Origin: Olsenella uli DSM 7084
Lineage (GTDB): Bacteria; Actinomycetota; Coriobacteriia; Coriobacteriales; Atopobiaceae
Direction: 5' to 3'
Assembly (NCBI RefSeq): GCF_000143845.1
Contig: NC_014363.1
Span: 1,411,186-1,475,185, forward strand
DNA length: 64,000 bases
The notes under the pieces are model-generated. The model ran no database searches, was not told where the DNA came from, and saw only the letters and a list, made by a program, of their open reading frames with translations. Position numbers and translations under genes: made by a program. This document shows, piece by piece, positions 3,110 through 20,712 of the stretch. Positions within the stretch are counted from its first letter, which is position 1; each line of letters starts with the position of its first letter.

Positions 3110-3826
3110 CTAGCACCTCTCCTTGAACTCGCGTATCTTGTCCGCAAGAGCCAGCTTGTCGTCGTGCAGCCTGAGGATGGTGGAGCCCACGAAGATCCCA
3201 TCCCCACCGGCATCCCTGACCATCTGTGCGTCCTGCGGGGAGTGGACTCCCACACCGCAGTAGATGGCATTCTCTAGCCCGCGTGACCTGAGGTAGCCGA
3301 TGCAGGACTTGAGCGTGGGATGCTCCCTGGTGGCTTGTCCAGGTGCAGGGACCGCCTGCAGATAGGTGAACCCGTTGGACTCCAGCGCTCGTCTGACCTC
3401 TTCTTCCGGCAGGTTGAACTGAACGTAGCAGCTCACCTTCAGGCCGGCGGCGATGAGGCGATCCTTGACCTCGTCCGTGCTTGACCCCACAAGGATGATG
3501 TCCTCGAAGTCGTTCTCCCTACAGAAGCCCCCAAACCTGCCTATGCCAATTTCCAGGATGGTGCTCTCGTATGCCATGAGGATGAACTTGGTATCTGGCA
3601 GCAGAGCGTGTGCCTTTGCCATGCCCACCATGTACTTGTCGTAATCACATTCGGCCTCAAGGGCCTTTGCCATTCTCCTTGCGATGAAGTCGCCTTCCAA
3701 GAAGGGGTCCTTGCTTGGAAAGTCCATCTCGATCATGTCGCAGCCGGCATCGACGTAGGTCCTTGCCATCTCTATGCTGCTCTCGATGGTCGGATAGCCG
3801 TTTGAAAGGTAGAGGATGAGCTTCAT
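3110..3826 (-). CDS. TrpA-like (tryptophan synthase alpha-fold) lyase
   Basis: A 238-residue (beta/alpha)8-barrel protein related to the tryptophan synthase alpha subunit. Both TrpA acid residues appear conserved: Glu33 in DMIEMDFPSKDP (TrpA Glu49) and Asp40 (TrpA Asp60). The phosphate-binding end is intact (CGVGVHSPQD and GDGIFVGST). It is not in a trp operon and there is no trpB. It is the last gene of an operon with a nucleoside importer, PfkB kinase, nucleoside phosphorylase, BtpA protein and iron alcohol dehydrogenase. By inference it performs a retro-aldol-type cleavage on a phosphorylated substrate. It is shorter than TrpA (about 260-270). An AAGGGTAA site precedes the ATG. Confidence 0.7.
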   Translation of the reverse strand: MKLILYLSNGYPTIESSIEMARTYVDAGCDMIEMDFPSKDPFLEGDFIARRMAKALEAECDYDKYMVGMAKAHALLPDTKFILMAYESTILEIGIGRFGGFCRENDFEDIILVGSSTDEVKDRLIAAGLKVSCYVQFNLPEEEVRRALESNGFTYLQAVPAPGQATREHPTLKSCIGYLRSRGLENAIYCGVGVHSPQDAQMVRDAGGDGIFVGSTILRLHDDKLALADKIREFKERC

Positions 3827-3902
3827 GCGGTTACCCTTCCGTAGTTATTGCTTGACAGGAAATCCGATGCACCCCGCGCATGCCCATACGACGCAGGTCC
3901 AT

Positions 3903-5054
3903 CTAAACGCCGTAGTAGGCCCTTTCGAGAATCTCGGCGAACTCGTGCACGGTCGGGATCACGGGGTTCGTCTTCGTGCATCCATCTCGGAGAGAGTCCT
4001 CCGCCATCTGCCGCAGGCTCCCCCTGTAGGTCGTCTCGTCGATTCCGGCGTCCTGCACGGTACTGGGAATGCCGAGGCTCGCGTTGAGGTCGCGCACGGC
4101 CTGCGCGAGGTCGTCCACGCCCATCTTTGCCGCAAGCCCCTCGTAGCGGCCTCTCGCCCACTTGTCCCTGCTGTTCCACTCGATGGTGTAGGGCAGCAGG
4201 ATCGCGCAGATGCGGCCGTGGGCGATGGGGAAGTAGCCACCGATGGTCTGCGCCATGGAATGGTCGATGCCCAGCGACACGTTCGTGAAGGCAAGGCCTG
4301 CCGTCATGGACGCATCGCTCATCATCTCGCGGGCCCTCATGTCATCGCCATCCCGATACGCCCTCGGAAGCCACCTCACGATGTCGAGCGCCGCTGCGGT
4401 GGCAAGGATGTCCGACACGTAGTTGGCCCTGTTGGAGACGAGCGCTTCCAACGCATGGGTAAGGGCATCCATGCCCGTCTCGGCGGTGACGTGCGGCGGC
4501 ATGCTCCTGGTGACGTCCGGATCGCAGATGGCGATGTCCGGCATCATCTCCATGTCTCCCAGGCCGTGCTTGCGACCTTCGTCATCGTCCGTGATGACGA
4601 CGGAGCGGGAGACCTCGGATGCCGTGCCGGATGTCGTGGGCACGCACATGAAGCGTGCCTTGGAGCGCAGCTTGGGGAGCGGCTTGGTATGCAGGATCTG
4701 GTCGAGTTCCTCGAGCTCGGGGTGTTCGTACATGACCCACATGGTCTTCGCCGCATCCATGACGGAACCGCCGCCAAGGGCGCAGATGAGATCGGGCTCC
4801 TCCTCGAGCATGCTCTGGGCGCCACGGCGCACGGTCGAGAAGTGGGGGTCGGGCTCCACTCCCCTGAACACGAACGTCCGCGCACCTCCGTCATGGAAGT
4901 ACTCCTCGACCCTCGCGAGCGACCCGTTGCGCTCCACGGCGCGACCACCAATCACGATGAACGCCTTCCTGCAGTGCACGGAGGTCTTGATGTACTCGAG
5001 GCAGCCCTCTCCGAACATCAGCTCGCTACCCGCGAGCTTCATGGGTCTCATCAT
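3903..5054 (-). CDS. Iron-containing alcohol dehydrogenase
   Basis: NAD(P)-dependent alcohol dehydrogenase of the group III (Fe) family, normally reducing short aldehydes in the cytoplasm. The 383-residue protein has the nucleotide-binding motif GGGSVMD (94-100) and the segment TTSGTASEVS (140-149). Metal ligands are Asp196 and His200 (MDALTHALEA), His265 (GIDHSMAQ) and His279 (IAHGR). The ATG at 5054 is chosen with AGGCGG upstream; an upstream TTG is unlikely. The substrate cannot be read from sequence. The context suggests it disposes of an aldehyde released by the neighbouring lyases. Confidence 0.85.
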   Translation of the reverse strand: MMRPMKLAGSELMFGEGCLEYIKTSVHCRKAFIVIGGRAVERNGSLARVEEYFHDGGARTFVFRGVEPDPHFSTVRRGAQSMLEEEPDLICALGGGSVMDAAKTMWVMYEHPELEELDQILHTKPLPKLRSKARFMCVPTTSGTASEVSRSVVITDDDEGRKHGLGDMEMMPDIAICDPDVTRSMPPHVTAETGMDALTHALEALVSNRANYVSDILATAAALDIVRWLPRAYRDGDDMRAREMMSDASMTAGLAFTNVSLGIDHSMAQTIGGYFPIAHGRICAILLPYTIEWNSRDKWARGRYEGLAAKMGVDDLAQAVRDLNASLGIPSTVQDAGIDETTYRGSLRQMAEDSLRDGCTKTNPVIPTVHEFAEILERAYYGV

Positions 5055-5137
5055 CGCTATCAACCGCCTTTCGTCCGGCGCCAACGCCCGGAGCAATCCA
5101 GTGTCGCTTCGAATACCGGCTCGCCGAGAGGTGCCGG

Positions 5138-5935
5138 CTACCTTCCAAGAGGTCTCATGAGGGTTCTGACCAGGTCATAGTCGACGGGGTTAGTCGTGAG
5201 GCCACCCTTCTTGAAGGTCGAGCCGACAATCGCGCCGTCCGCGACCTTGAACTGCTCGACGACGTCGGTCGGGCTGATGCCAGAGCCCGCAAGCACGGGC
5301 AGGTCGACCACGCTCTTGACCCTCCTTATCATGTCGATCGGAGTCTCCTCGCCCGTCGTGGTTCCCGTCACGATGATGGCGTCGGCGCCAGCCGCCTCCG
5401 CGTTCGCGGCGCTCTCCTCGATGGAGACTTGGGGCAGCAGCATGCTGCTATGCTTGACCTGCACGTCGCAGAGGAGCATCACGTCGTCCGCCCCAAGGTG
5501 ATGACGCAGCTCGATGACCTTGTGTGCACAGGGGTTGACGACGCCGCACCAGTTGGAGACCGTGTCCACGAACACGGGCACGCGGACGAAGTCGCATCCG
5601 TTCGCCACGGCGATCCCCAGGCTGGCCTCGCAGTCGTTGAAGGACGCGTCAGAGCCGACGGGTATGCCCACGGCCTGCCTCACAAGCGCAGTTGCAGCGG
5701 ACAAGGCTGCCACCTGCGCCTTCGTGAGGAGCTCCGTGAACGGGGCGTCATTGGTGTTCTCGACGATCAGTGCGTCGACGCCGCCGCGCTCGAGGGTCCT
5801 CGCGTCCTCGACGGCCCGCTCCAGGACCTCACCCATGTCCCCCCGGCATGCCGGAGAGCCCGGAAGCGGGAGGCAGTGCACCATCCCGATGACGAAGCCC
5901 CCGCACACCTTGATCACGTCCTTTATGTCCTTCAT
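5138..5935 (-). CDS. BtpA/SgcQ family TIM-barrel protein
   Basis: A 265-residue member of the BtpA/SgcQ family, a TIM-barrel family first linked to photosystem I biogenesis but in most bacteria found among sugar and nucleoside catabolism genes; no general enzymatic role is settled. Seen here are GMVHCLPLPGSP near the N terminus, VDALIVENTNDAPF, DVQVKHSS, and a C-terminal phosphate-site-like part VLAGSGISP and GAIVGSTFKKGG. These suggest a phosphate-bearing ligand. It sits between the nucleoside phosphorylase and the alcohol dehydrogenase with 75-85 bp gaps on each side, in one transcription unit. Confidence 0.8.
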   Translation of the reverse strand: MKDIKDVIKVCGGFVIGMVHCLPLPGSPACRGDMGEVLERAVEDARTLERGGVDALIVENTNDAPFTELLTKAQVAALSAATALVRQAVGIPVGSDASFNDCEASLGIAVANGCDFVRVPVFVDTVSNWCGVVNPCAHKVIELRHHLGADDVMLLCDVQVKHSSMLLPQVSIEESAANAEAAGADAIIVTGTTTGEETPIDMIRRVKSVVDLPVLAGSGISPTDVVEQFKVADGAIVGSTFKKGGLTTNPVDYDLVRTLMRPLGR

Positions 5936-6010
5936 CTCGACCTCATCCCCTTCGATAGGCTCTCTTCTCCAGACTCCTGGCCTTGAGCTCCCGGTGGTTT
6001 TACTGGCCTC

Positions 6011-6763
6011 CTAGCCGTTCGAGCCCGCGAACCGCGCAAGTCCCTCGAGGGTCACCCGGCACAGGAGGTCTTCCGCATCCGTTCTCTCGTCCCCCTTAAG
6101 GCTGTCCCTCAAGTTCTCCAGGACGGTGGCGAGGGTGACCACACACGCGCGCACCCCCATGAGTCGCGAGACCGTCAGGATGCAGCTCGACTCCATGTCG
6201 ATGGCGCAGACGCTGAGCCTCCTCATCTCGTCGAAGGTGGGGGAGATGTCCCTTCCCTGCTCCCGCGAGAGGCGCGAGTCATGCATCTGGGTGTAGAAGC
6301 CGTCCATGCTGCACGTGACGCCGTTGAGGCAGCGCCTGCCATGGTCCGACACGACCTGGTTCATCGCATTCACGAGGTCGACGTCTGCAACCGCCGGATA
6401 CCCGCGCTCGACGTAGGTGTCGCTCGTACCGTCGCGCCGCATGACCGCTATGGGGATGATGAACTGCCCGAGCATGTCATCCCGAAGCGACATCGAGGTG
6501 CCCATCCTCACGGCTACGCGCATCCCCGCCTCGTACATCTCCTCCACGGCGATTGCGGCTGAGGGGGCGCCGATCCCCGTGGAGCTCACGGTCATGGGCA
6601 CGCCGTGGTACGTGCCCGTGTAGGTGTTGAACTCCCTGGCAAAGGCCACATGCACGGGATCGTCCAGATAGCGCTTCAGCACCTCCACGCGCCAGGGGTC
6701 GCCCGAGAAGATCACGCTCGGGGCGACCGTGCCCTTCCTCGCCCCTAGATACAGTGTCGACAT
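6011..6763 (-). CDS. Nucleoside phosphorylase (uridine phosphorylase-like)
   Basis: A 250-residue member of the NP-I (PNP/UDP) family, which splits nucleosides with phosphate into base and pentose-1-phosphate. Signatures include SGDPWRV (20-26), SSTGIG (60-65), RMGTS (86-90), and the ribose-binding DMES (189-192, equivalent to the MES/MEA motif). The ATG at 6763 overlaps the end of the PfkB kinase gene by 19 bases, implying translational coupling. A much longer upstream frame is only an antisense-of-frame artefact over the kinase gene. Base specificity cannot be assigned; residues around the DPGRV-like motif depart from classical Udp. Confidence 0.8.
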   Translation of the reverse strand: MSTLYLGARKGTVAPSVIFSGDPWRVEVLKRYLDDPVHVAFAREFNTYTGTYHGVPMTVSSTGIGAPSAAIAVEEMYEAGMRVAVRMGTSMSLRDDMLGQFIIPIAVMRRDGTSDTYVERGYPAVADVDLVNAMNQVVSDHGRRCLNGVTCSMDGFYTQMHDSRLSREQGRDISPTFDEMRRLSVCAIDMESSCILTVSRLMGVRACVVTLATVLENLRDSLKGDERTDAEDLLCRVTLEGLARFAGSNG

Positions 6764-7731
6764 GCCTGCCCCCGCATCCTTCCGACCTCGCCCCGCCTCT
6801 CCTCGAGCCTTGCCAGGAGCTCCTCCTCGCCAGGCACGCCTGTGCAGCATCCGTACCGCTCCAGCACGAACGAGGAGAGGGTCGCCCCCAACCGACAGCA
6901 CTCGCCAGGCCCCTTGCCATGCGCCCATCCGTATAGGAAGCCGCTCATGTACGCGTCGCCACAGCCCGTCGTGTCCACCACCGCGCCGCACGGCACGACG
7001 CCAACCGAACCGCGACTGACGGAGCCGTCCGACTCGCGGTGGCACCACGCCGAGCCCCTCGGCCCGTACGTGGTGACGATGGTGCGCACCTCGTCGGACA
7101 GGAGGTCCTCCATCGACGGGAGGCCCAGCGCCCTCTCGATGCAGCGACGCTCGGACTCGTTGGCGAACACGATTTCCGAGCCCCTGAGCAGCTCCTCCAG
7201 AAACGGCAGCGGAAACGCGCCCTCGTCGGCCTTCATGCCAAAGGCCACCGGGATGCCGTGGGTGCGGCACTTCTCGAAGAACTCCCGGTTGTCACGCTCG
7301 GAGGCGACGGTTATCACGCCCAGGGCCACGTCCGAGAAGAGCTCGTCATCCAGCGGGCGGAAGTGTTCGGGCGCCATGGGTCCGGGGTAGTAGCAGGTGA
7401 TGTGTTGGCCCTCCGCGTCCTGGATGAGATAGCTCGCGGAGGTGGCCTCCCCAGACACCACGGCGATCGCATCAAGGCCGACGCCAGCCTCCTCCAGGAA
7501 GCTGCGGAACCCGGTCCGCTCCCAGTCATCCCCCACCCTGAGGATGGGCTTGGCCGGGACGCCCAGCTTGGAGAGGGCGTAGGCTATGTTGACCGAGCAG
7601 CCGCCAAAATAGGTCCTGGTGCAGCTGCTGTTGGTGATGATCGAGGTGTAGCCCACGCGCGCCGGTGTCGAGATCTCGATCATGTGGTCCATGCTCACGT
7701 ACCCGGACGTGAGCACGACTTGTCCGCTCAT
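6745..7731 (-). CDS. PfkB-family carbohydrate/nucleoside kinase
   Basis: A 328-residue ribokinase-fold kinase that would phosphorylate a sugar or nucleoside with ATP. The N-terminal substrate motif FGGCSVNIAYALSKLG (42-57) and the C-terminal anion-hole motif DTTGCGDA (253-260) with catalytic Asp259 are intact. A Cys replaces the usual Ala/Gly in the latter motif. The start ATG overlaps the stop of the isochorismatase-like gene (ATGA), and its own end overlaps the phosphorylase start. Neighbours suggest the substrate is a nucleoside or a pentose derived from one. Ribokinase, adenosine-kinase and pseudouridine-kinase-like roles are all open. Confidence 0.82.
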   Translation of the reverse strand: MSGQVVLTSGYVSMDHMIEISTPARVGYTSIITNSSCTRTYFGGCSVNIAYALSKLGVPAKPILRVGDDWERTGFRSFLEEAGVGLDAIAVVSGEATSASYLIQDAEGQHITCYYPGPMAPEHFRPLDDELFSDVALGVITVASERDNREFFEKCRTHGIPVAFGMKADEGAFPLPFLEELLRGSEIVFANESERRCIERALGLPSMEDLLSDEVRTIVTTYGPRGSAWCHRESDGSVSRGSVGVVPCGAVVDTTGCGDAYMSGFLYGWAHGKGPGECCRLGATLSSFVLERYGCCTGVPGEEELLARLEERRGEVGRMRGQACRHCI

Positions 7732-8318
7732 CGCCTCTCGCCCCCCCTGAGCCTCCCCAGGAGCTCGTCCATCGAGACGACCTCCCCCAGGTACTTGCGG
7801 ATGTCCTCGAGGTGGACTTGGTTCACCGCATCGGAGTCCGTGGCGACGCACTCCCTCACGACGATGGGGTCGTAGTCCAGGCAGAAGGCGTCCGTCACCG
7901 TCGCTCGGATGCAGCAGTTGGTCTTGGTGCCCACCACGATCACGTTGCGCATGCCGTTCTCGCGCAGGACGAGGTCGAGGTCCGTCCCGAAGAAGCCCGA
8001 GTAGCGACGCTTCTTGATCACGTAGTCGCACTGGGGGACGACCTCGAGCATGGGGTCGATGTCGTCGCCCCACGTCCCTTCGATGCAGTTGGGCCTCATG
8101 GATGCCGCCTTGCGGTCATACTTGCCCGCGCGGTTGCAGTGCCTGAGGAACACCACCAGCACGCCCGCCTGCCTACAGGCATCGATGACCCGCCTGATCC
8201 TCGGGAGGATCTCCCTGTTCTGCGGATAGAAGGCGAGCCCCTTGGGGTCGGTGAAGTCCCTGAGCATGTCCACCACGAGAAGGGCGCTCCTCCTTCCCTC
8301 GATGGCGTCACTAGCCAT
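7728..8318 (-). CDS. Isochorismatase-family cysteine hydrolase
   Basis: A 196-residue cysteine hydrolase of the isochorismatase/nicotinamidase/RutB superfamily. Asp17 (VVDMLRDF), a Lys at 102-103 (KKRRYSGFFGT) and Cys136 (TKTNCCIRAT) form the expected catalytic triad. The KRRYSGFFGTDLD segment resembles ureidoacrylate- and carbamoyl-type amidohydrolases more than isochorismatases; this is a judgement by eye. It is the first enzyme gene after the importer and overlaps the permease stop by 8 bases. A role hydrolysing an amide or ureido group on the released base is plausible but unproven. Confidence 0.8.
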   Translation of the reverse strand: MASDAIEGRRSALLVVDMLRDFTDPKGLAFYPQNREILPRIRRVIDACRQAGVLVVFLRHCNRAGKYDRKAASMRPNCIEGTWGDDIDPMLEVVPQCDYVIKKRRYSGFFGTDLDLVLRENGMRNVIVVGTKTNCCIRATVTDAFCLDYDPIVVRECVATDSDAVNQVHLEDIRKYLGEVVSMDELLGRLRGGERR

Positions 8319-9225
8319 TTGCGAACCCCCTTGCCCTGACGTTGCGGCGCTTGGAGACCTGGGCGAAGAGCAGAACGACCACCATCACGATGTAGGGGAT
8401 GACGTCGAAGAGCCCTGCGGCGGATCCCGCATAGATCGCGAGGTTGATGGAGAGCGAGCGAGCAAAGCCGAACAGGATCGCATAGAGCGAGGACTTGAGC
8501 GGGTCCCCCCTGCCGCAGTAGATCGCGGCGATTGCTACGAAGCCCCTGCCTGCGGTCATGTTGTTGGTGTAGAGCCCGAGCCTCTCAGTCGAGAGGTTTG
8601 TGCCCGCAAGCCCGCAGGTGAGTGCGCCGATGAGGATGGCTGCCACTTTGTAGAAGTCCACCTTGAGTCCCAACGACTTGGCCGCGTCCTCGTTCTCCCC
8701 CACGACCCTCACGTAGGTGCCGAACCTCGTTCGGTACGAGAGGACCCACGTGAGCCAGATGCCCGCGAAGGCAACGTAGGTGAGGACGGGGTGGCCCGAC
8801 ACGATGGGTCCCACGAGGGGGACGTCACTGACGCCGGGGATCACGATCTTCAGACCTGCGACGCTAAGGTTCGAGAGTGCGATGTTGGCGACGTTCATCC
8901 TCGCCATCACGAAGCCCGCGACAGCGGTCGCCAGGAGGTTGAGCGCGACGCCGATGATGATGACGTTACCCTTGAGCGTGACCCCCATCAGCGAGAACAT
9001 CGCCCCGAACACGAATGCCGCAAACACGCCGGCGAGTAGTCCCAAGAGCAGGTCGTCGGTAAGGAGCACGACGAGCGTGGAGGCGAACGCGCCTATCCCC
9101 ATCATGCCCTCGAGGGCAATGTTGAGGACGTTTGCCTGATAGGCAAACACGCCGCCTATGACGCAGAGGATGATGGGTGACGCATGGTACACCGTGTCGT
9201 AAAGAATGCTTGCGAGAAGATCCAT
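8311..9225 (-). CDS. Nucleoside ABC transporter permease (second subunit)
   Basis: A 304-residue polytopic inner-membrane protein of the BPD_transp_2 (branched-chain amino acid/ribose-type) family, with YufQ-like length. The segment FAYQANVLNIALEGMM near residues 27-42 is the conserved signature of guanosine/nucleoside permeases. It begins 2 bases after the stop of the preceding permease gene. With the partner permease, ATPase and BMP lipoprotein it forms an importer for nucleosides or related compounds. Confidence 0.88.
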   Translation of the reverse strand: MDLLASILYDTVYHASPIILCVIGGVFAYQANVLNIALEGMMGIGAFASTLVVLLTDDLLLGLLAGVFAAFVFGAMFSLMGVTLKGNVIIIGVALNLLATAVAGFVMARMNVANIALSNLSVAGLKIVIPGVSDVPLVGPIVSGHPVLTYVAFAGIWLTWVLSYRTRFGTYVRVVGENEDAAKSLGLKVDFYKVAAILIGALTCGLAGTNLSTERLGLYTNNMTAGRGFVAIAAIYCGRGDPLKSSLYAILFGFARSLSINLAIYAGSAAGLFDVIPYIVMVVVLLFAQVSKRRNVRARGFANG

Positions 9226-9227
9226 CG

Positions 9228-10346
9228 CTAGGCCCCCTTCGCGCCGTCGGCACCCACGACATCGGCCGTGCCCTCGGGACCGTCATGTCTGTGCGGGAAG
9301 CGAGCCTTGAGGCGCCCCCTCAGACCGAAGCGGCTGTCCAGGAGCTTGGCCGCAAGGAAGAGGATGATGAGGCCTTGGATGACCGTCACGAGCTCCTTGG
9401 GGACGGACGAGTAGAGGTTGATGTTGTCCGCACCCGTCTTGAGCGCAGCATAGAAGACGGCCGCGATGAGGATTCCCGTCGGGGAGTGGTTGCCCAGGAG
9501 CGCGACGAGCATGCCGTCCCAGCCGAGCCCGGGGTTGCCCGAGAAGCCCAGGGTGTAGTGGTACTGGTCAGATAGCATGTAGCCGGCGCCGGCGAGTCCC
9601 GCGAGGGCACCCGAGACCAACATGAGGACGATGATCTTGCGACGCACCCTCATGCCCATCGCGTCGGCGAACTCGACGTTCTTGCCCATGGCGGTGATCT
9701 CGAAGCCGAGCTTGGAGTGGTTCATCACCACGAACATCACGGCAAAGGCCACCAGCGAGACGAAGAAGAAGGGCGTCATCTTGGCGCTCGCCATGCGCTG
9801 GAACATGGCCCCTTCATGGATGGTGGGCGTGCAGACGTAGCCCGAGCCCTGGTCACGGAACACGCCGGTGGAGAGGAACTCCAGCACCTTGGCAAGCGCG
9901 TAGTTGAGCATCAGGGTCACGACCATCTCGTCCACGTGGAAGCAGGCCTTCAGGATCGCGGGCACGACCACGTAGAGCATGCCGCATGCGATGCCGACGA
10001 CAAGGCAGGTGACCTTGAGGACCGTCGGGTCGAGCGTGGCGGGAAGGTATGCCCCCGCAATGCCGGCGAAGAAGCCGCCCAGGAGGACCGACCCCTCCAC
10101 ACCCATGTTGTATATGCCCGCCTTGAAGTTCACCGCGATGGCAAGCCCCGTGAGCACGAGCGGGGCCGCGTAGTGCAGCGTCGTGAGGAGGCCCTTTGGG
10201 GTGAGCAGCGACTTGTCGATCAGTATCGAGTAGGTCTGCATGGGGTTCTCGCCCATGAAGGCGATCACGATCCCGCCGAGTACGAACGCCAGAAGCACGG
10301 GAACGAGCGAGTTGAGAACACCCATGCCGACCGTCTTAGCCTTCAA
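9228..10346 (-). CDS. Nucleoside ABC transporter permease (first subunit)
   Basis: A 372-residue permease of the same family, YufP-like. The motif VNFKAGIYNMGVEG (about 72-85) is the family's signature loop. The predicted start is TTG at 10346, with GGAGG 8 bases upstream inside the ATPase gene, giving an 11-base overlap; an ATG at 10325 is a less well-placed alternative. A hydrophilic C-terminal tail (about 345-372) follows the last helix. Confidence 0.85.
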   Translation of the reverse strand: MKAKTVGMGVLNSLVPVLLAFVLGGIVIAFMGENPMQTYSILIDKSLLTPKGLLTTLHYAAPLVLTGLAIAVNFKAGIYNMGVEGSVLLGGFFAGIAGAYLPATLDPTVLKVTCLVVGIACGMLYVVVPAILKACFHVDEMVVTLMLNYALAKVLEFLSTGVFRDQGSGYVCTPTIHEGAMFQRMASAKMTPFFFVSLVAFAVMFVVMNHSKLGFEITAMGKNVEFADAMGMRVRRKIIVLMLVSGALAGLAGAGYMLSDQYHYTLGFSGNPGLGWDGMLVALLGNHSPTGILIAAVFYAALKTGADNINLYSSVPKELVTVIQGLIILFLAAKLLDSRFGLRGRLKARFPHRHDGPEGTADVVGADGAKGA

Positions 10347-11880
10347 GTCCCTCGCCTCCCCCCTTCTTGACTCCCGCCATCAGGAGTCCCAGCTCAGTGC
10401 TGGTAGTCTCCCTCGGCAGCACCTCCCCCGTTATCTGTCCCTTGCACATGACGACGATCCGGTCGGAGAGCCCGAGGACCTCCGTGAGTTCGCTCGAGAC
10501 GAGGAGCACCGAGCTGCCCGCGTTGCGGAAGCGCAGGATCTCCTCGTGGATGGACTCGGTGGCACCGATGTCCACCCCTCGGGTCGGCTGGCACGCGATG
10601 AGGAACTTGGGCGCAGACTCGAGCTCACGCGCAACGATGACCTTCTGTGCGTTGCCACCCGAGAGGGCCCCCACCTGGCCATCGATGTCACCGACGCGAA
10701 TGTCGTACTTCTCCAGAAGGGCGTCGCGCTGGGCGAGGACCGCCCGCCTGTTCAGGATCCCATGCCTGCAGACGGCGGGATCGCCATGATGGCCGGCGAT
10801 GCAGTTGTCGGCCACGCTCATGGTGGCGCAGAGACCGTCCTCGAAGCGATCCTCCGGAATTATGGCCACACCATCGTCGCGGAGCTGGTCGGGCCATTGG
10901 TTGGTGATGTCGACGCCGTCGAGCGTGACTTTGCCCTCGGTGGTGGTCATGAGACCGGTCAGCACCTTCACGAGCTCCGTCTGCCCGTTGCCCTCGACTC
11001 CCGCGACGCCGAGGATCTCTCCGCGGTGGACGTCGAAGCTCAGCTTGTGGAGGACTTCCTTGCCGTACTCGTTGACGGTCGAGAGCCCCTTGGCCGAGAA
11101 GGCAACCTCCTCGGACGGGGGTGTCGTCACGTCATTATGAACAGTCAGGACGACCTCACGCCCGACCATCATCTGCGCGATCTGCTCCTGGGAGCTGTCC
11201 TTGGTCGCCATGGACCCGACGACCTTGCCATGCTTGATCACCGTGACGGAGTCCGAGATCTCCATGACCTCACGCAGCTTGTGGGTGATGACGATGATGG
11301 TCTTGCCCTGCCCCCGCAGTTCACGGAGGTTGTCGAAGAGCTTGTCCACCTCCTGCGGCGTGAGCACGGCGGTGGGCTCGTCCATGATGAGGACGTCCAC
11401 GTTGCGGTAGAGCATCTTGAGGATCTCGACGCACTGGCGCGACCCGACGGATATGTCCTCGACCTTGGCGCGGGGGTCGAGGTCGAACTTGTACTTCTTG
11501 ATGAGAGCGGAAACCGACCTGATCTCCTCCTGGGTGTCGATGAGGCGCGATCCCTTGTGCAGGATCTCTGTCCCCAACAGGACGTTCTCGTACACGGCCA
11601 GGCTAGGCACGAGCTTGAAGTGCTGGTGCACCATGCCCAGGCCATGCTTGATCGCATCGGTGGGCGAGCGGAGGCTCACCTCCTCGCCCCTGATGAGGAT
11701 CCTCCCGCTAGTGGGTTGCAGCATGCCGTAGAGCATGTTCATGAGGGTGGACTTGCCGGCGCCATTCTCGCCGACGATGCACTTTATCTCGCTCTTCCTG
11801 ACGATAAGGTCTATGTGGTCATTCGCGACAAAGTCCCCGAACGCCTTGGTCAGACCCACCGTCTCGATGACGTTTCCCAT
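10336..11880 (-). CDS. Nucleoside ABC transporter ATPase, double cassette
   Basis: A 514-residue ATPase with two nucleotide-binding domains, like YufO. Domain 1 has Walker A GENGAGKST (about 37-45), signature ISVGSRQ and Walker B VLIMDEPT. Domain 2 has a degenerate Walker A (GVEGNGQTE), signature LSGGNAQK and a divergent Walker B (FLIACQPT). Degeneracy of the second site is normal in this family. The ATG at 11880 is preferred over a GTG two codons earlier. It energises uptake by the neighbouring permeases. Confidence 0.9.
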   Translation of the reverse strand: MGNVIETVGLTKAFGDFVANDHIDLIVRKSEIKCIVGENGAGKSTLMNMLYGMLQPTSGRILIRGEEVSLRSPTDAIKHGLGMVHQHFKLVPSLAVYENVLLGTEILHKGSRLIDTQEEIRSVSALIKKYKFDLDPRAKVEDISVGSRQCVEILKMLYRNVDVLIMDEPTAVLTPQEVDKLFDNLRELRGQGKTIIVITHKLREVMEISDSVTVIKHGKVVGSMATKDSSQEQIAQMMVGREVVLTVHNDVTTPPSEEVAFSAKGLSTVNEYGKEVLHKLSFDVHRGEILGVAGVEGNGQTELVKVLTGLMTTTEGKVTLDGVDITNQWPDQLRDDGVAIIPEDRFEDGLCATMSVADNCIAGHHGDPAVCRHGILNRRAVLAQRDALLEKYDIRVGDIDGQVGALSGGNAQKVIVARELESAPKFLIACQPTRGVDIGATESIHEEILRFRNAGSSVLLVSSELTEVLGLSDRIVVMCKGQITGEVLPRETTSTELGLLMAGVKKGGGEGLEG

Positions 11881-11980
11881 GGGCACGCACCACCGTTCCG
11901 CAAAATCGCCTGTGGGGCAGGGTCGGAGCCCCTCTCCCGCCCCACGGGCATGGCCTGGCTCACGAGCTGACCGAGGCCAA

Positions 11981-13183
11981 CTACTTGATGTTCACGTTCG
12001 GGCAGGTGGAAGGATCGAACTCCTCGCCATTCTGGGCGTTGACGATCTTGATCTCGGATCCGACCTTGCCCTTGAGGTCCTCGATCTCGGACCAGATCTC
12101 CTTCCACTTGGCCTTGCCCTCGTCGGTCGTGATGGCCTTCTGGATCTCGCTGCAGTCGGTGATACCGGTCGCGCCGGATGACAGGGAGTAGTCCTGCAGG
12201 TTGTCCATCTTGGAGATGGAGCCGTCATCCAAGGCGTCGCAGATGGCCTGGACGGGGACGTTGGTGTTCTTCAACACGGAGGTGAGCACGTGGCCAGGCT
12301 GTTGGTCGTCCTTGTTGCCGTCGACCTGGATTGCGAGCTTGCCAACCTCCTTCGCCTTGGACGTGATGCCATCTCCCACGCTGCCAGCAGCACCGAAGAC
12401 GACGTTTGCGCCATTGCCGTAATAGGTGCCTGCGACGGTCGCGCCACCGGCAGAATCGGTGAAGCCGGCATCGTACTTGGAGTAGTAGTCGTACGTGACG
12501 CCCAGCTTCTGTGCCTCGTAGTTGATGCCCGTGATGTAGCCCCAGGAGAACACCGTAATCCCAGCGGAGTTCGTGCCACCAATAAAACCGCAGGCACGGG
12601 CAGTGTTGGGGTCGGTGAAGCTGTAATCGCCCCCCTCGAAGAGGACCGAGGCGCTCTCGTTGACCAGGACTGAGAGCGCACCAGCAAGGAATGAGGACTC
12701 ATTGAGGTCGTAGAGGACCGCAATGACGTTCTTGTGCTTGACCGAACCGTCTTCGCTCTTGTTGGGGTTGTCGTTGAAGATGACCCACTCGGTGCTGGGA
12801 TACTGTGCGGCAAGCGGCTCTGCACCGCCCACGCCATTGATCAGTGCCTCGAAGTCATACGCCATGTTGAAGATGACGTCGTACCCTTCCTCGCCGAGCG
12901 ACTCGAGGGCGTCAGGCACGCCGTTTGTGGGCTCGACGACCTTGAACTCCCAGCCCTTCTCGTCGCAGACCTTCCCGGCGCCCTCGACGGCAGCCTGGTT
13001 GTAGCCGTTGTCGTTCTTGCCGGCGTCATCGCAGAGGACGGCGATGCGCCTCTTCTTGCCGTCATCATGAGAATCCGAGACGTTGGCACCTCCGCATGCA
13101 GCGAGGCCGAGCATTGCGGCAACGGCTGCCGAAGTGCCGAGGAACGTACGACGCGACATCTTTCTGTTCGTGGAATCCTGCAT
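11981..13183 (-). CDS. BMP-family nucleoside-binding lipoprotein
   Basis: A 400-residue extracytoplasmic solute-binding lipoprotein of the BMP/PnrA family. The N terminus carries a twin-arginine motif (SRRTFLG) and lipobox LAAC with the lipidated Cys at 30, so Tat export and membrane anchoring are expected. GKNDNGYNQAAVEGAG and GADVVF-like segments (GANVVFGAAGSVG) are typical of the family. It lies between the regulator and the ATPase, with AAGGGG before the ATG. BMP proteins usually bind purine or pyrimidine nucleosides, though some relatives bind autoinducer or sugar-like ligands, so the ligand is inferred. Confidence 0.88.
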   Translation of the reverse strand: MQDSTNRKMSRRTFLGTSAAVAAMLGLAACGGANVSDSHDDGKKRRIAVLCDDAGKNDNGYNQAAVEGAGKVCDEKGWEFKVVEPTNGVPDALESLGEEGYDVIFNMAYDFEALINGVGGAEPLAAQYPSTEWVIFNDNPNKSEDGSVKHKNVIAVLYDLNESSFLAGALSVLVNESASVLFEGGDYSFTDPNTARACGFIGGTNSAGITVFSWGYITGINYEAQKLGVTYDYYSKYDAGFTDSAGGATVAGTYYGNGANVVFGAAGSVGDGITSKAKEVGKLAIQVDGNKDDQQPGHVLTSVLKNTNVPVQAICDALDDGSISKMDNLQDYSLSSGATGITDCSEIQKAITTDEGKAKWKEIWSEIEDLKGKVGSEIKIVNAQNGEEFDPSTCPNVNIK

Positions 13184-13224
13184 GGTCTTCCCCTTCTCTC
13201 CCCTCTGGCGGCCTTTCAGATCCT

Positions 13225-14028
13225 CTATGAGTCCTTTCGAGCTCCTTCCTCCCCACCCATGACTTGATTGATATAGAACTTGAACTTGTCGCTTCTATAG
13301 CAGCACTTGAAGTACTCGATGGGACGCTCGCGGCCGCACATCTTGCCTTTGGTGACGCACTCAAAGTGGAGGATCGGGGTTCCGGGACTGACTTGCAGGT
13401 ATCGGGCTATCTCCTCCTTGGCGAGGATCGCCTCGATGGTGCGTGTCGCAGTGGTTATCTGACATCCGTACTGCTTCTCCAGCACCCGGTACAGGGAATC
13501 TTGCGAAAAGTCGTATGCGTCGATCCCAGGGAACAGCTTGCAGGGCAGGTAGGCGATCGTGTGGTTGAGGGGATCGTCATCTGCGAGGTAAACGCGTTCG
13601 AGCGTGAAGACCCGCTCGTTGCTCCCAAGCTCCAGGAGACGCATGCGCTTCTGGTCCGCGACCCCCGTGGACGAGGAGATGACATGCCTCTTTGGGGTCA
13701 TGCCCAAGTTGATGACGTCTTGCGTGCAGCTGGTGATGGAGATGAGGTTCTGCTGGATCTTGTCGGACTTGACGTAGGTGCCCTTGCCTTGGATGCGGTA
13801 GAGGTAGTTCTCCCCCACCAGCTCATCGACTGCCCTGCGGATGGTGATTCTGCTTACGCCAAAGAGCTCGGTCAGTTCGCGCTCGGACGGGATGAGCTCG
13901 TTCCCCACGTACTCCTCCGTCTCGATCTTCCTGAGGATTGCCCGTTTGACGATGTAGTACTTGGGGGCCATGGACTGATCTGCGGCCTTCAGCTTCATGC
14001 CCAACGGCAATTCAATAAGCTGGCTCAT
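13225..14028 (-). CDS. GntR-family regulator with UTRA domain
   Basis: A 267-residue transcription factor of the HutC subfamily. The winged helix-turn-helix is at about residues 22-90 (IPSERELTELFGVSRITIRR is the recognition part, then GKGTYV). The ligand-sensing UTRA domain spans about 105-250. It is the first gene of the 11-gene operon, 41 bases upstream of the BMP lipoprotein gene, so autoregulation with release by a pathway metabolite is likely. Direct repeats upstream of its start are candidate binding sites. Confidence 0.9.
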   Translation of the reverse strand: MSQLIELPLGMKLKAADQSMAPKYYIVKRAILRKIETEEYVGNELIPSERELTELFGVSRITIRRAVDELVGENYLYRIQGKGTYVKSDKIQQNLISITSCTQDVINLGMTPKRHVISSSTGVADQKRMRLLELGSNERVFTLERVYLADDDPLNHTIAYLPCKLFPGIDAYDFSQDSLYRVLEKQYGCQITTATRTIEAILAKEEIARYLQVSPGTPILHFECVTKGKMCGRERPIEYFKCCYRSDKFKFYINQVMGGEEGARKDS

Positions 14029-14040
14029 TGATGACCCCTC

Positions 14041-14057
14041 TTGTCATTATGTTGTCA
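14041..14057 (-). promoter_or_regulatory. Possible operator: TGACAA direct repeats
   Basis: Upstream of the regulator start the minus strand carries TGACAA twice (14041-14046 and 14052-14057), spaced 11 bp, about one helical turn. They lie 13-29 bases before the ATG in an A/T-rich patch containing CATAAT. Placement and spacing suit a repressor site over the promoter or leader. Inference only. Confidence 0.35.
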
Positions 14058-14059
14058 TA

Positions 14060-14523
14060 TCCACTTATAAATGTTATTCGCCACGAAACTGAGGCCGCGA
14101 GCTGCTCTCGTGGCGAGTGCCATTTGGTCCGCGAATGGTAATACCACTTGAACTACCTGCGGAAACGCAGATTGGTTGTGACGCCATCTGAAGCTGCTCA
14201 TCAAAAGTGTCCGAAGAGAGAAGCTGGCCCTTTGAAGAACCGAATATGCTCCTGCCGACATCATGACGAACTGGCTTAAAAGATACACGCTACGAGGACT
14301 GGCATTAAGCGGAATGGCCATCCACCAAGCACTGCGTTGTAGGGGTCTATGGTCTGTGGATTCGAAAGCCCATACGCTGTGCCCGAGCCTGATAGCGAAC
14401 CTTGTCGATGTCCTATTGCCGGACGAAGCCAACTTCCTTGCCCGCCGCGCGACAGACTCGTTCGCTGAGCATATAGGGGTCCTCGGCTTTGCTGTCCCAT
14501 TTGGTGTCCCGTTTAGTGCACTA
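14060..14523. other. Gene-free, lower-GC region next to tRNA-Val
   Basis: No frame here looks like a real gene. On the minus strand, translation gives short protein-like stretches in different frames broken by stops, which could be a decayed gene, but I recognise no family. A palindrome TTTAGTGCACTAAA lies at about 14513-14526. Base composition is less GC-rich than in the surroundings. A former insertion next to the tRNA is possible but no attachment-site duplication is visible. Confidence 0.35.
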
Positions 14524-14559
14524 AAACAAAGCAGGCCAGAAGCTAAGCCTCTGGCCTGC
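14524..14559 (-). terminator. Intrinsic terminator of tRNA-Val
   Basis: A 10-bp stem (14531-14540 with 14550-14559) and a 9-base loop are followed on the minus strand by TTTGTTTT. It lies just downstream of the tRNA and clearly belongs to it. Confidence 0.85.
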
Positions 14560-14566
14560 GAATTTA

Positions 14567-14641
14567 TGGTGGGCGTTAGAAGATTTGAACTTCTGACCTC
14601 TTCCGTGTCAGGGAAGCGCTCTCCCCCTGAGCTAAACGCCC
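14567..14641 (-). tRNA. tRNA-Val (GAC)
   Basis: A complete cloverleaf of 75 bases including an encoded CCA. The acceptor stem is GGGCGTT/AACGCCC, the anticodon stem-loop CTTCC-CTGACAC-GGAAG gives anticodon GAC, and the T loop reads GTTCAAATC. It has its own promoter and terminator. Confidence 0.95.
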
Positions 14642-14683
14642 GAATGCGTGCCGCCGCGCGTGGGGTCGCGCAGCGCGTTAGCT

Positions 14684-14712
14684 ACTATACGAGAATGGGA
14701 GCGTTGGTGCAA
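14684..14712 (-). promoter_or_regulatory. Promoter of tRNA-Val
   Basis: On the minus strand, -35 TTGCAC (14707-14712) and -10 TATAGT (14684-14689) are separated by 17 bp. They lie about 40 bases upstream of the mature tRNA 5' end. Confidence 0.75.
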
Positions 14713-14866
14713 ACGAGAACTTGTCGCACGGGCAAACCGTTGAGACTTTGTGAACCGTGAGCGTATGCCCACCTCCGTCCGGCGAGCGCCTCGCCGTTTG
14801 GCCCGCCATATGGCCAACATTTCCAGGCCAGTGGCGCCTCGAACGGCTTTCCGCAAGCCTGCCACC

Positions 14867-16633
14867 CTACTCCTCGACGATGATGCGCAGCTTCTTCTTG
14901 CCGGACTTGGGAGGTTTCTCAGCCACAGGCCGCGATGGCTGAGAGGCTTGCGATGGTTGCAACATCTGCGCCGAACGAGGCGCTTGTGCTGGACGAACCC
15001 CAGTCTGCGCCGGTCGCATCCCAGCTCCACTTGCAGGACGGGCAACCTGGGGCGGAGTCCCAGCCCCACCCGCAGACGCCACGCTACCGGCAGGGACCGC
15101 GCCGCTCGCAGGTGCCACGCTACCCGAAGGCATGCCCTTGCCGGAGATCCTCACCTTGCCCGAGCGGCTCATCCTGACGCTGACCCCATCGGTACGACCG
15201 CCTGACCGACTCCCAATGCGCCCCCCCGTGAGAGTGGCGATGCGGCCACCCACACGACCGCCAACCCGCGATGCCGCACGCCCATGGAACACGTCCCTGC
15301 GCACGCCAGCCAGGCGGGAACGCAGGCGCTTCCAGCGCACGTGGATGCTGGGGCCCCCATGCGAGCGCAGGCCCAGCAGCGGCACCGCGACCAGGACCGG
15401 CAGGAAGTACTCGACCATGCGCCAGACCACGTATCCCGCCGTGATGGACGACCCGAACATGGGCGCAAAGAGGAACGCGAATCCCCCCTCGGCACCCCCC
15501 GTACCACCCGGCAGCGGTATGGCCGAGGTCAGAAGCTCCAGCATGGAGCCACAGGCCAGGCAGGTGATGAGGTCCGCCGGTTGGCCAAACGCCCGCAGGA
15601 CGAAGTATGGCAGCGCATAGAGGCACCCCAGCTGGATCAGGGTCACGACCAAGGTGGCGATCATCTCGGCAACGTTCTTCGACGCGGCGCGAAAACCCGC
15701 CGAGAAGTCGTTGACCTCGGAATTGACGACCTCGTGCCAATGGTCGTGGCTCTTCTCGGACAGCCAGCCACGCGCACGGAGGAACCTCAGCAGGGCGTTT
15801 CCCACGCGCGTGATGAAGTGCGGCCACAGGCAGACCACCAAGAGGCCTGCCACCTCGACCACCTTGAAGCCAAAGAGCAGGGCTCCCACCAGCACGACGT
15901 TGCCATAGGTATCCAGGAAGTACTGCCAGCGGAAGAGCAGCATGAGCGCGGCGAAGATTCCCTCGCCCGCCTCGTACACGATGAAGCGCGTGTACTGCAG
16001 CGCCCCCGCGCCACCCATGGAGAGTCCCGCGCGGGTCAGGCGGAAGATCTGCGACGGAGCCCCGCCGGCCCCGTTGGGCGTGAGGTTGCCAAAGAAGATG
16101 CCCGATGCCTCGACGCTCATGAGGTCGCGGATGCCCACCGGCGACGTGGGGTCGGATATGACCGCCATCACGTAGGCGCTCACGCCAAAGGCGTAGTAGA
16201 CGACGTAGCACAGCGCTGCCGCGACGACCCATCCACGATCGATTCCGCCCATCGCCGAGAGAAACTCGTCGATCTGGCCCGATATGATCAGGTACGCCGC
16301 GTATGCCACGCCGACGGCAGCCAGGAAGAGCAGGCTCTTGCGGACCGTGCCCATGCTCTCGCGCTCGGCCTCGACCTGGGAGGCGGGCACCGACGCCGAC
16401 GCCGACACCCTGACCGAGACCTTGGCGGTCTTGGGAGACTTCGCGGGTTTCGAGGGTTTCGCAGAATCTGTGGAACCTGCGGCCCCCGTGGGCTGGAGGA
16501 CCCCCGCAGGTCCGGATGGTGGCGTGGTCCCAGAGGCCCGTACGGACCGAGAGGCATTCTCGGACCCAAGGGCACCGGTCCCGGACGAGACGGGTGCGTT
16601 CTTCCTCCCCTTGCTGTCAGCGGACTGGGACAT
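14867..16633 (-). CDS. LPG-synthase/flippase-like (UPF0104, YbhN) membrane protein
   Basis: A 588-residue integral membrane protein of the lysylphosphatidylglycerol synthetase TM-domain (MprF N-terminal, AglD) family. A long N-terminal tail rich in Ser, Pro, Ala and Lys (about 1-95) precedes six to eight helices starting at LLFLAAVGVAYAAYLII. The family motifs FFGNLTPNGAGGAPSQIFRL and SAIPLPGGTGGAEGGFAFLF are present. A low-complexity basic C-terminal tail of some 150 residues (Gly/Arg, then Ala/Pro/Gln) ends in KKKLRIIVEE. There is no lysyltransferase domain, so a lipid transport role is more likely than aminoacylation. AGGAG precedes the ATG; an upstream extension is unsupported. Confidence 0.8.
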   Translation of the reverse strand: MSQSADSKGRKNAPVSSGTGALGSENASRSVRASGTTPPSGPAGVLQPTGAAGSTDSAKPSKPAKSPKTAKVSVRVSASASVPASQVEAERESMGTVRKSLLFLAAVGVAYAAYLIISGQIDEFLSAMGGIDRGWVVAAALCYVVYYAFGVSAYVMAVISDPTSPVGIRDLMSVEASGIFFGNLTPNGAGGAPSQIFRLTRAGLSMGGAGALQYTRFIVYEAGEGIFAALMLLFRWQYFLDTYGNVVLVGALLFGFKVVEVAGLLVVCLWPHFITRVGNALLRFLRARGWLSEKSHDHWHEVVNSEVNDFSAGFRAASKNVAEMIATLVVTLIQLGCLYALPYFVLRAFGQPADLITCLACGSMLELLTSAIPLPGGTGGAEGGFAFLFAPMFGSSITAGYVVWRMVEYFLPVLVAVPLLGLRSHGGPSIHVRWKRLRSRLAGVRRDVFHGRAASRVGGRVGGRIATLTGGRIGSRSGGRTDGVSVRMSRSGKVRISGKGMPSGSVAPASGAVPAGSVASAGGAGTPPQVARPASGAGMRPAQTGVRPAQAPRSAQMLQPSQASQPSRPVAEKPPKSGKKKLRIIVEE

Positions 16634-16794
16634 GCGACTCCTGAGTCGGTGTACATGGCACGTGGCGGCGCGTTCGAAGCACAAGCACCCGGCATGCGAC
16701 GCTCGTGCAGGAGCTCGTCTGCCACACTCAAGCATCATATGTCACGGTGGCCACGTTACGGGCGACACGGCATTCGAGGACTCGAACACCAGAA

Positions 16795-16851
16795 AGACTC
16801 CCGCCGTGGGGAAAGACTCCCGTTGTGGGGAAAGACTCCCGCCGTGAGCGG
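16795..16851. repeat. Tandem repeat, 19 bp x 3
   Basis: The unit AGACTCCCGCCGTGGGGAA starts at 16795, 16814 and 16833. The second and third copies differ at a few positions. Confidence 0.9.
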
Positions 16852-16883
16852 GACAAAGGACAGCAGCGCACATGTCTTCTCGA

Positions 16884-16926
16884 CCTCGCGGGGCGGCAGG
16901 GACAACCTCGCCTCGCGGGGCGGCAG
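16884..16926. repeat. Direct repeat, 16 bp x 2
   Basis: CCTCGCGGGGCGGCAG occurs at 16884-16899 and again at 16911-16926, 27 bp apart. Confidence 0.85.
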
Positions 16927-16943
16927 AAGAACCTGACCGCAAG

Positions 16944-17212
16944 GGATGGCAGAGCAACTTTTGTGAGCGAGTCTGAGGAGAGATTCACAATACTTCTTCA
17001 CACGTCCATTTTTCGTAGGCGAATGGATGACAGGAGAAGTTTTGTGAGTCGGATTTGCTCAGCAACTCACAATACCTCCCCTCTCGTCCATAAAACCCCT
17101 AGAGGTCGGATGGCAGGAGAGGTTTTGTGAGTTTCCATCACACAGGGCTCACAATAGTTCCCCAGCCATCCACAGGTCCCGAAAAAAGGGATGCGAGGGA
17201 AACTTCTGTGAT
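16944..17212. repeat. Cluster of palindromic repeats (three full units plus a half)
   Basis: Units lie at 16984-17049, 17065-17132 and 17148-17212, with a right half-unit at 16944-16967. Each is about 65-68 bp: left arm TCACAATA plus a pyrimidine-rich stretch, then an inner CCATCC/GGATG pair, then a purine-rich stretch and right arm TTTTGTGA. In the second unit the outer arms pair over 14 bases with one mismatch. The same family recurs at 62.46-62.73 kb. They resemble REP/BIME or MITE-like elements. Confidence 0.8.
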
Positions 17213-17214
17213 TC

Positions 17215-17317
17215 GCGCTCCTTGTGATCTGCGCTCCTCGCGATCCTTGTGATCTGCGCTCCTCGCGATCCTTGTGATCTGCGCTCCTCGCGATCCGTGC
17301 GATCCGTGCGATCCGTG
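17215..17317. repeat. Tandem repeats: 25-bp unit, then 9-bp unit
   Basis: The 25-bp unit made of GCGCTCCTCGCGATCC plus TTGTGATCT occurs twice in full (17231-17255, 17256-17280), with partial copies on both sides. It runs directly into three copies of the 9-bp unit CGATCCGTG (17291-17317). Units abut without spacers, so this is not a CRISPR array. Confidence 0.85.
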
Positions 17318-17411
17318 CGCTCCGCGCTCCGAAAGGCTCACGGAACTTCGCCGGTCATCCACTGCTGACGCCCACAGACAAATGGCCCGGGCGGGCAGCG
17401 TCGGCATGGGC

Positions 17412-19807: not shown

Positions 19808-20712
19808 CGAGCGTCGCCTCCCCCCTGGCTGTCGATGACGAGGTTCTGGAACTTGCTCGACATGAACTGGTCGGTGAAGTTCTGGTCTACCCACGCCTCG
19901 AAGGCGTTATGGGCCGGGATCCCCGCGTCACGCGCGGCACGACGCGAGAAGCAGGCGACGGTCAGGAAGATGTCGAGCGCAAGGTAGACGGCTAGAATCA
20001 CCACGAAGGTGACCTGACGGCGCGTGGTGGGCTCACCGATGCGGAAGAGCAGCTCGGGTGTGATGACCTTGGCCCAGACCAGGCCGAGGGCACCCCAGAA
20101 CACGAGGAAGCGCCAGGCCACCCAGGTGGTGATGTGATCAGGCAGGGCGGCGTAGGTCCAGGACTGCGCGTGGAAGAGCGTCTCCATCCCCCAGCCGGTC
20201 AGCTGCTCCAGGCTCCCCCCCACGAAGGCAGAGAGCAGGAAGATCTGCCAGGAACGTGCCTGCTTGCGCCTCAGCCAGAACGAGAGGGCGGTGAGCAGGA
20301 CCGTGCCCGTGCCGTACAGAGGGGAGAACGGCCCCCACACCAGGCCGACACGGGACTCGGTAAGGCCGGCCGTGGCGAACATCCAGACCTCCTCGAGCAA
20401 AAGGCCTGCCATGGAGCCCAGGACGAAGATGAACACGATCTGATACCAGCCCAGGCTGAGGCCATCGAGAAACTCCTCGCGTTCCTCGCGGCGGGACTGC
20501 AGCACCTGCGCGCGCTGACGGCGCGTGAGGCGGGGGCTGAGGACCTCCTCGGCCTCCTCGGGCAGGCTCCCCTCTGACGTGACGCGCCCACGTGCGCGGG
20601 CGTGCTCGAGGTCCCTGCCATGGCCGAGCCAGGTCCAGAAGTAGCCGACAACCCGTGCGAAGCCACGGACGACCAGCAACAGGAACAGGAGCGACAGGAG
20701 GGTCAGGAACAT
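19804..20712 (-). CDS. Putative membrane protein, ABC_trans_CmpB family
   Basis: A 302-residue membrane protein of the PF06541-type family (annotated as putative ABC-transporter type IV, without experimental support). One N-terminal helix is followed by a charged loop with LTRRQRAQVLQSRREEREE (about 62-80), then about five helices from YQIVFIFVLGSMAG. The motifs GLVWGPFSPLYG and the SLEQLTGWGMETLFHAQ region are typical. GAGGAG precedes the ATG. It is coupled translationally to the desulfurase gene, although no functional link is known. Confidence 0.7.
   Translation of the reverse strand: MFLTLLSLLFLLLVVRGFARVVGYFWTWLGHGRDLEHARARGRVTSEGSLPEEAEEVLSPRLTRRQRAQVLQSRREEREEFLDGLSLGWYQIVFIFVLGSMAGLLLEEVWMFATAGLTESRVGLVWGPFSPLYGTGTVLLTALSFWLRRKQARSWQIFLLSAFVGGSLEQLTGWGMETLFHAQSWTYAALPDHITTWVAWRFLVFWGALGLVWAKVITPELLFRIGEPTTRRQVTFVVILAVYLALDIFLTVACFSRRAARDAGIPAHNAFEAWVDQNFTDQFMSSKFQNLVIDSQGGGDAR

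Follow-up and report, generated by a model that had tools for sequence, protein, structure and literature searches.

What pathway is encoded by an operon that joins the genes of a nucleoside-type importer to those of a phosphorylase, a kinase, and two TIM-barrel proteins related to BtpA and TrpA? This question is raised by a locus of Olsenella uli DSM 7084 in the window analyzed here, 64 kb of a single-contig genome of 2,051,896 bp; positions are counted within the window. Eleven minus-strand genes run as a tight operon from 14028 (GntR) to 3110 (TrpA-like), in the order GntR, BMP importer (four genes), isochorismatase-type hydrolase, PfkB kinase, Udp-family phosphorylase, BtpA, iron-containing alcohol dehydrogenase (Fe-ADH), and TrpA-like protein. 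We tentatively read it, with confidence a little below even, as an inducible operon by which a non-canonical nucleoside would be imported and phosphorolyzed, its sugar phosphorylated, isomerized, and cleaved, the C2 aldehyde reduced, and the base hydrolyzed. No description of this operon turned up in a literature search. The features are listed below.

14137..14145, minus strand: GGTATTACC palindrome, probably bound by the GntR/UTRA regulator as its operator and located 109 bp ahead of the GntR start
13225..14028, minus strand: GntR/UTRA transcriptional regulator (PF00392 and PF07702; 55-85% identity in other cassette genomes)
11981..13183, minus strand: BMP (PnrA-like) substrate-binding protein with a Tat-type signal and a lipobox-like LAAC (PF02608)
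10336..11886, minus strand: ABC transporter ATPase (syntenic orthologues 81-86% identical; annotated Agrobacterium vitis cassette ATPase 42%)
9228..10346, minus strand: ABC permease 1 (PF02653)
8311..9225, minus strand: ABC permease 2 (PF02653)
7728..8318, minus strand: isochorismatase-family cysteine amidohydrolase (PF00857)
6745..7731, minus strand: PfkB kinase, a putative pentose-1-phosphate 5-kinase (PF00294)
6011..6763, minus strand: Udp-family nucleoside phosphorylase (PF01048)
5138..5935, minus strand: BtpA/SgcQ-family phosphate-binding TIM barrel, a putative isomerase, epimerase, or lyase on a phosphorylated sugar (PF03437, TIGR00259)
3903..5054 (open reading frame open to 5096), minus strand: iron-containing alcohol dehydrogenase, a putative C2-aldehyde reductase (PF00465 and PF25137)
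3110..3826, minus strand: TrpA-like TIM barrel without TrpB, a putative lyase (PF00290)

An earlier note on this DNA had described eleven tightly packed, partly overlapping genes of these families, and this description was confirmed. Neighboring genes are separated by -19 to +94 bp, and four junctions overlap (ATPase/permease 1, permease 2/hydrolase, hydrolase/kinase, and kinase/phosphorylase). The Pfam scan took in 10 of the 11 proteins, and all 10 matched above the cut-off: Trp_syntA, Fe-ADH, BtpA, PNP_UDP_1, PfkB, Isochorismatase, BPD_transp_2 (twice), Bmp, and GntR with UTRA. The ATPase was placed by syntenic similarity instead. Translation of Fe-ADH most likely starts at ATG 5054 rather than at TTG 5096. 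No Rfam elements or riboswitches were found within the operon, and scans for promoters and terminators gave no excess over shuffled sequence.

We next examined the conservation of the gene set. By tblastn, the eleven genes were collinear in Tractidigestivibacter scatoligenes, Olsenella sp. KH3B4, and Olsenella sp. Marseille-P4559 (77-87% identity), and the complete set was also collinear in three more distant Atopobiaceae genomes (roughly 54-74% identity). Collinearity in six further genomes indicates that the arrangement is not due to chance. TrpA-like orthologues with at least 55% identity were present in 7 of 140 genomes of the family, and phosphorylase orthologues (>458 bits; next best match, 170) were present in the same seven among 398 genomes of the class. 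In a phylum-wide sample of 396 genomes, the phosphorylase orthologue was found in the window's own genome only, and 16 inspected neighborhoods of Actinomycetota phosphorylase matches of 110-170 bits contained no such cassette. The earlier note had called for this search for co-occurrence and would have given up its reading had the set not been conserved together; the set is conserved, and the reading stands on this point. Conservation across the seven related genomes reflects selection for the gene set and is not proof of its chemistry. In another genome (G239, C1:1216000-1235900), we also observed a different BMP-ABC importer operon, in which GntR and a PfkB kinase accompany several genes of the phosphorylase family and both BtpA and TrpA-like genes are lacking.

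A palindrome was located upstream of GntR in all seven cassette genomes, as GGTATTACC in five and GGTATTGCC in two. In the window, GGTATTACC has a single exact match (0.04 expected), and the extended site RNTGGTATTACCAN occurs once genome-wide. The palindrome is likely the operator of the GntR/UTRA regulator. One operator ahead of the first gene fits a single transcript that would be autoregulated. Farther upstream of the operon lies a tRNA gene (14570-14641, minus strand).

A second version of the cassette was found on two plasmid records, of Agrobacterium vitis and Rhizobium lusitanum. In both, GntR, BMP, ATPase, two permeases, hydrolase, kinase, and phosphorylase follow the same order as in Olsenella. 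The rhizobial cassettes then continue with a SIS-domain sugar isomerase and an aldehyde dehydrogenase in place of BtpA, Fe-ADH, and the TrpA-like protein; the frame of the R. lusitanum aldehyde dehydrogenase is broken in the sequence examined. In a tree of 30 phosphorylases, the nine cassette members clustered as a single clade (99/96) separate from Udp and DeoD, and the cassette kinases also grouped together with moderate support (91/87). The cassette clade was not resolved in the isochorismatase tree (77/86), and other isochorismatase matches on the inspected plasmids lay in unrelated clusters. The phosphorylase clade and the kinase grouping argue for a single origin of the common core, most strongly for the phosphorylase. 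The downstream module appears to have been exchanged, with BtpA, Fe-ADH, and TrpA-like protein in the anaerobes and SIS protein and aldehyde dehydrogenase in the aerobes. Since the position of Fe-ADH is taken by an aldehyde dehydrogenase in the rhizobia, an aldehyde is the likely common product, and the simplest inference is that it is reduced by the anaerobe and oxidized by the rhizobia.

The importer set is complete (a PF02608 binding protein, two BPD_transp_2 permeases, and an ATPase assigned by similarity only), and the solved chains closest to the BMP protein include BmpA, BmpD, and TmpC/PnrA. These relatives are described as nucleoside binders (PMC7093131, PMC13325309). The importer is predicted to be a BMP-type nucleoside importer.

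The phosphorylase scored 165.5 bits against TIGR01718, under the cut-off of 280.3, and is assigned at the level of the Udp family (PF01048). Residue roles in phosphate, ribose, and base recognition are given as in Udp and DeoD. Of the E. coli Udp residues, all nine cassette phosphorylases retain those for phosphate (Gly26, Arg30, Arg48, Arg91, and Thr94) and the ribose pair Met197-Glu198. His8, which contacts the 5'-OH in Udp, is replaced by Tyr in all nine; this position is His in all aligned non-cassette relatives except DeoD of the same genome (Cys). As for the uracil motif, Arg168 is missing in all nine, and Gln166 is alignment-dependent in the Olsenella-type members and missing in the rhizobial ones. 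The GQER loop is also lost throughout and replaced by TQMH or TEMF, and Val occupies the position where DeoD carries Asp. The change of His8 to Tyr and the loss of the uracil motif suggest that the base is probably neither uracil nor purine.

The kinase matched NF053626 (ATP-ribose-1-phosphate kinase) at 64.5 bits (cut-off, 330). This model was the top match of both rhizobial kinases, and the cassette kinases span 63-75 bits. In the hydrolase, Asp-Lys-Cys is invariant in the alignment. Its nearest NCBIfam models are RutB and biuret hydrolase, both below the cut-off, and it is closest to ureido and carbamoyl amidases; such an enzyme would fit processing of the base. For Fe-ADH, the best NCBIfam model was bifunctional AdhE, below the cut-off, and its score against GlycoaldRedHalo was 24.9 bits (cut-off, 550), which places it at the level of the Fe-ADH superfamily only.

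BtpA is a full-length family member (PF03437, 223.9 bits with a cut-off of 30; TIGR00259, 212.9 bits with a cut-off of 153.4). A Protein Data Bank sequence search gave weak partial TIM-barrel matches only and no solved family member, and no assigned reaction for BtpA/SgcQ proteins was found in the literature searched. Structure prediction, suggested by the earlier note for both TIM barrels, yielded a usable BtpA model (pLDDT, 74.6) with a fold of the HisF/TrpA/TrpC/hexulose-phosphate synthase type. Assignment of a reaction from this model was rejected, because many phosphate-binding TIM barrels matched about equally (Z, 18-20). The BtpA genes inspected on plasmids and chromosomes usually adjoin a PfkB or FGGY kinase or lie within a phosphotransferase system operon, and in two of three inspected haloarchaeal plasmids BtpA adjoins a PfkB kinase. 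This context suggests that BtpA probably acts on a phosphorylated sugar. The match above the curated cut-off and the kinase-linked context are shared with the BtpA/SgcQ family; unlike SgcQ, the protein has at strand 5 the KH motif common to haloarchaeal and Roseomonas members. Other BtpA loci were also noted. At C1:1600000-1619900 of the O. uli genome (~8583-19831 of that piece), an SgcQ-type BtpA lies beside an FGGY kinase in a second sugar locus with two GntR/UTRA regulators, amidohydrolase-like and epimerase-like proteins, several PfkB kinases, and a DapA-like protein. BtpA also neighbors TenA, together with sugar ABC genes and phosphotriesterase-related ones, in Ponticoccus, Pantoea, and a Klebsiella record; in Ponticoccus and Pantoea, BtpA is adjoined by a PfkB kinase.

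The TrpA-like protein scored 80.6 bits with PF00290 and 78.6 bits with TIGR00262, under the trpA equivalog cut-off of 102.35; its diverged orthologues (85.8 and 99.7 bits) also fell under it. It is the genome's only TrpA-family protein, apart from a weak cross-match of BtpA. The earlier note had stated that TrpB is lacking, and this holds genome-wide, where the two PF00291 proteins resemble cysteine synthase and threonine dehydratase; nearly all other TrpAs examined in the family adjoin TrpB. The protein shares with the tryptophan synthase alpha chain the family match, Glu49, an acid at position 60, Tyr175 (E. coli TrpA), and the equivalents of Gly211/Gly213 and Gly234-Ser235. It differs in its ~25-30% identity, in Asp for Gly51, in the loss of the Thr183-Gly184 loop, and in its position on a long branch within a separate clade (100/99). 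The claim that both catalytic acids are kept therefore needs qualification: the Glu49 equivalent is invariant in all seven orthologues, but the Asp60 position is Glu in five, including the window protein, and Asp in two. Likewise, the phosphate site is retained in its glycine and Gly-Ser elements but not in the loop. The predicted structure was of low quality (pLDDT, 62.7) and was set aside. TrpA releases glyceraldehyde-3-phosphate through C-C cleavage, and a lyase role is thus chemically suggestive. A second solitary TrpA relative, on its own long branch, was observed in Olsenella sp. Marseille-P4559 (contig C2, ~5937-6680), and the 13 kb examined there contained no TrpB.

These features lead us to infer the following scheme, with all of its substrates, its sequence of steps, and the activities given to BtpA and the TrpA-like protein. 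The importer would take up a non-canonical nucleoside, which the phosphorylase would cleave phosphorolytically to give the base and pentose-1-phosphate. The PfkB kinase would add a second phosphate at C5, and the bisphosphate would be isomerized and cleaved by BtpA and then the TrpA-like protein, or by one of these TIM barrels alone. The products would be a C3 phosphate, either dihydroxyacetone phosphate (DHAP) or glyceraldehyde-3-phosphate, together with a C2 aldehyde that is probably glycolaldehyde or glycolaldehyde phosphate. Fe-ADH would reduce the aldehyde, re-oxidizing NADH in the anaerobe, and the isochorismatase-type enzyme would act hydrolytically on the base, at an amide or ureido group. 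The outline of import, phosphorolysis, phosphorylation, cleavage, and reduction had been drawn in the earlier note; it fits the comparative evidence, is strengthened by the rhizobial aldehyde dehydrogenase, and is overall supported in part.

Several observations weigh against this scheme. TrpA works without a Schiff base or metal because indole acts as an electron sink, and a sugar substrate would require another solution. The genome encodes a DeoD phosphorylase, phosphopentomutase, and transketolase, so ordinary ribosides need no special route. No cassette kinase reaches the NF053626 cut-off (best, 74.7 bits), some BtpA genes have no kinase neighbor, and the rhizobial cassettes have no obvious lyase. 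A ribose-1,5-bisphosphate (R15P) isomerase (PF01008), a HAD ribulose-1,5-bisphosphate (RuBP) phosphatase, and a FucA-type aldolase are all absent from the operon proteins, the latter two not having been searched for genome-wide.

Other functions were also considered. The operon might serve base or cofactor salvage rather than carbon catabolism: the hydrolase would act on the base of a modified nucleoside (for example one with a carboxamide or ureido base, or a nicotinamide-riboside-like compound), and the kinase would form a nucleotide or a phosphorylated base. The phosphorylase without uridine and purine recognition residues and the place of the hydrolase in the core of both cassette versions speak for this possibility, as do the breadth of PfkB, a family with kinases for both nucleosides and vitamins (the best solved relatives include MJ0406 and adenosine kinase), and the weak, below-cut-off similarity of the importer to putative B6 transporter models. 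However, salvage leaves no role for BtpA, Fe-ADH, and the TrpA-like protein, or for the SIS protein and aldehyde dehydrogenase, and on visual inspection the metal site of PncA is missing from the hydrolase. We regard salvage as unlikely, though deserving some weight.

A 5-deoxyribose or 2-deoxyribose route, in which a 5-deoxynucleoside or deoxynucleoside would be split, the sugar would yield acetaldehyde and DHAP or glyceraldehyde-3-phosphate and Fe-ADH would make ethanol, is improbable. The closeness of Fe-ADH to the alcohol dehydrogenase half of AdhE and the Tyr at the 5'-OH contact agree with it, but the operon contains no MtnA, MtnB, or DeoC-type gene, the genome's one PF01008 (MtnA-like) protein lies elsewhere, beside the DeoD phosphorylase, and 5-deoxyribose-1-phosphate offers the kinase no C5 hydroxyl. 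In that other locus (~C1:1670070), the MtnA-like gene overlaps DeoD and LuxS lies on the opposite strand, possibly for salvage of S-adenosylmethionine by-products. Lastly, the BMP and BPD_transp_2 families are broad and their names fix no ligand, so that autoinducer-2, a sugar, or a vitamin might be imported and the phosphorylase-family enzyme might act on another substrate. We consider this very improbable in view of the nucleoside-binding relatives of the BMP protein and of the phosphorylase in the same operon, whose phosphate and ribose residues are intact.

A bolder form of the preferred catabolic scheme, which we hold to be rather doubtful, is a non-carboxylating pentose bisphosphate pathway in bacteria that would act on a non-canonical nucleoside, with BtpA as the sugar-bisphosphate isomerase (the family's first enzymatic role), a TrpA descendant without TrpB as the sugar-phosphate lyase, and anaerobic (reducing) and aerobic (oxidizing) end modules. 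BtpA/SgcQ proteins are widespread, and a bacterial TrpA relative recruited outside tryptophan synthesis would, if true, be a clear case of enzyme repurposing. Ten haloarchaea have the phosphorylase and ATP-ribose-1-phosphate (R1P) kinase with no known downstream enzymes (PMC9700705); if BtpA acts on a bisphosphate here, this gap becomes directly testable.

Finally, we compared the operon with known systems. The earlier note had likened it to the 5-deoxyribose/DHAP shunt, with which it would share an aldehyde end product, reduced or oxidized. This comparison is less apt than another: the MtnA-type isomerase and MtnB-type aldolase of the shunt are absent from the operon, and a kinase acting after the phosphorylase needs a free hydroxyl, which is missing at C5 of a 5-deoxy sugar. 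Uridine phosphorylase shares its family and its phosphate and ribose residues with the cassette enzyme but differs at His8, in the GQER loop, and in clade. In Thermococcus, the BMP-type importer NupDABC feeds the carboxylating pentose bisphosphate pathway (PMC12628685), as the importer may do here for a pentose bisphosphate route; that pathway uses R15P isomerase and Rubisco, neither of which is in the operon (no Rubisco search of the genome was made). The closest described logic, not named in the earlier note, is that of the haloarchaeal non-carboxylating pentose bisphosphate pathway, which leads from nucleoside through R1P, R15P, RuBP, and ribulose-1-phosphate to DHAP and glycolaldehyde and then to ethylene glycol (PMC9700705). 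In haloarchaea, a phosphorylase and a kinase acting in sequence, with subsequent cleavage and reduction of the aldehyde, have been demonstrated biochemically (PMC9700705). Both systems place a Udp-family phosphorylase beside a PfkB kinase, and the operon would likewise split the sugar into a C3 phosphate and a C2 aldehyde, the latter then being reduced. In place of the haloarchaeal R15P isomerase, HAD RuBP phosphatase, FucA-type aldolase, and glycerol-1-phosphate-dehydrogenase-like reductase (PMC9700705), the operon has BtpA, the TrpA-like protein, and Fe-ADH; it is also bacterial and has the additional hydrolase and BMP importer. By this analogy, the operon would work like the haloarchaeal pathway without being a member of it.

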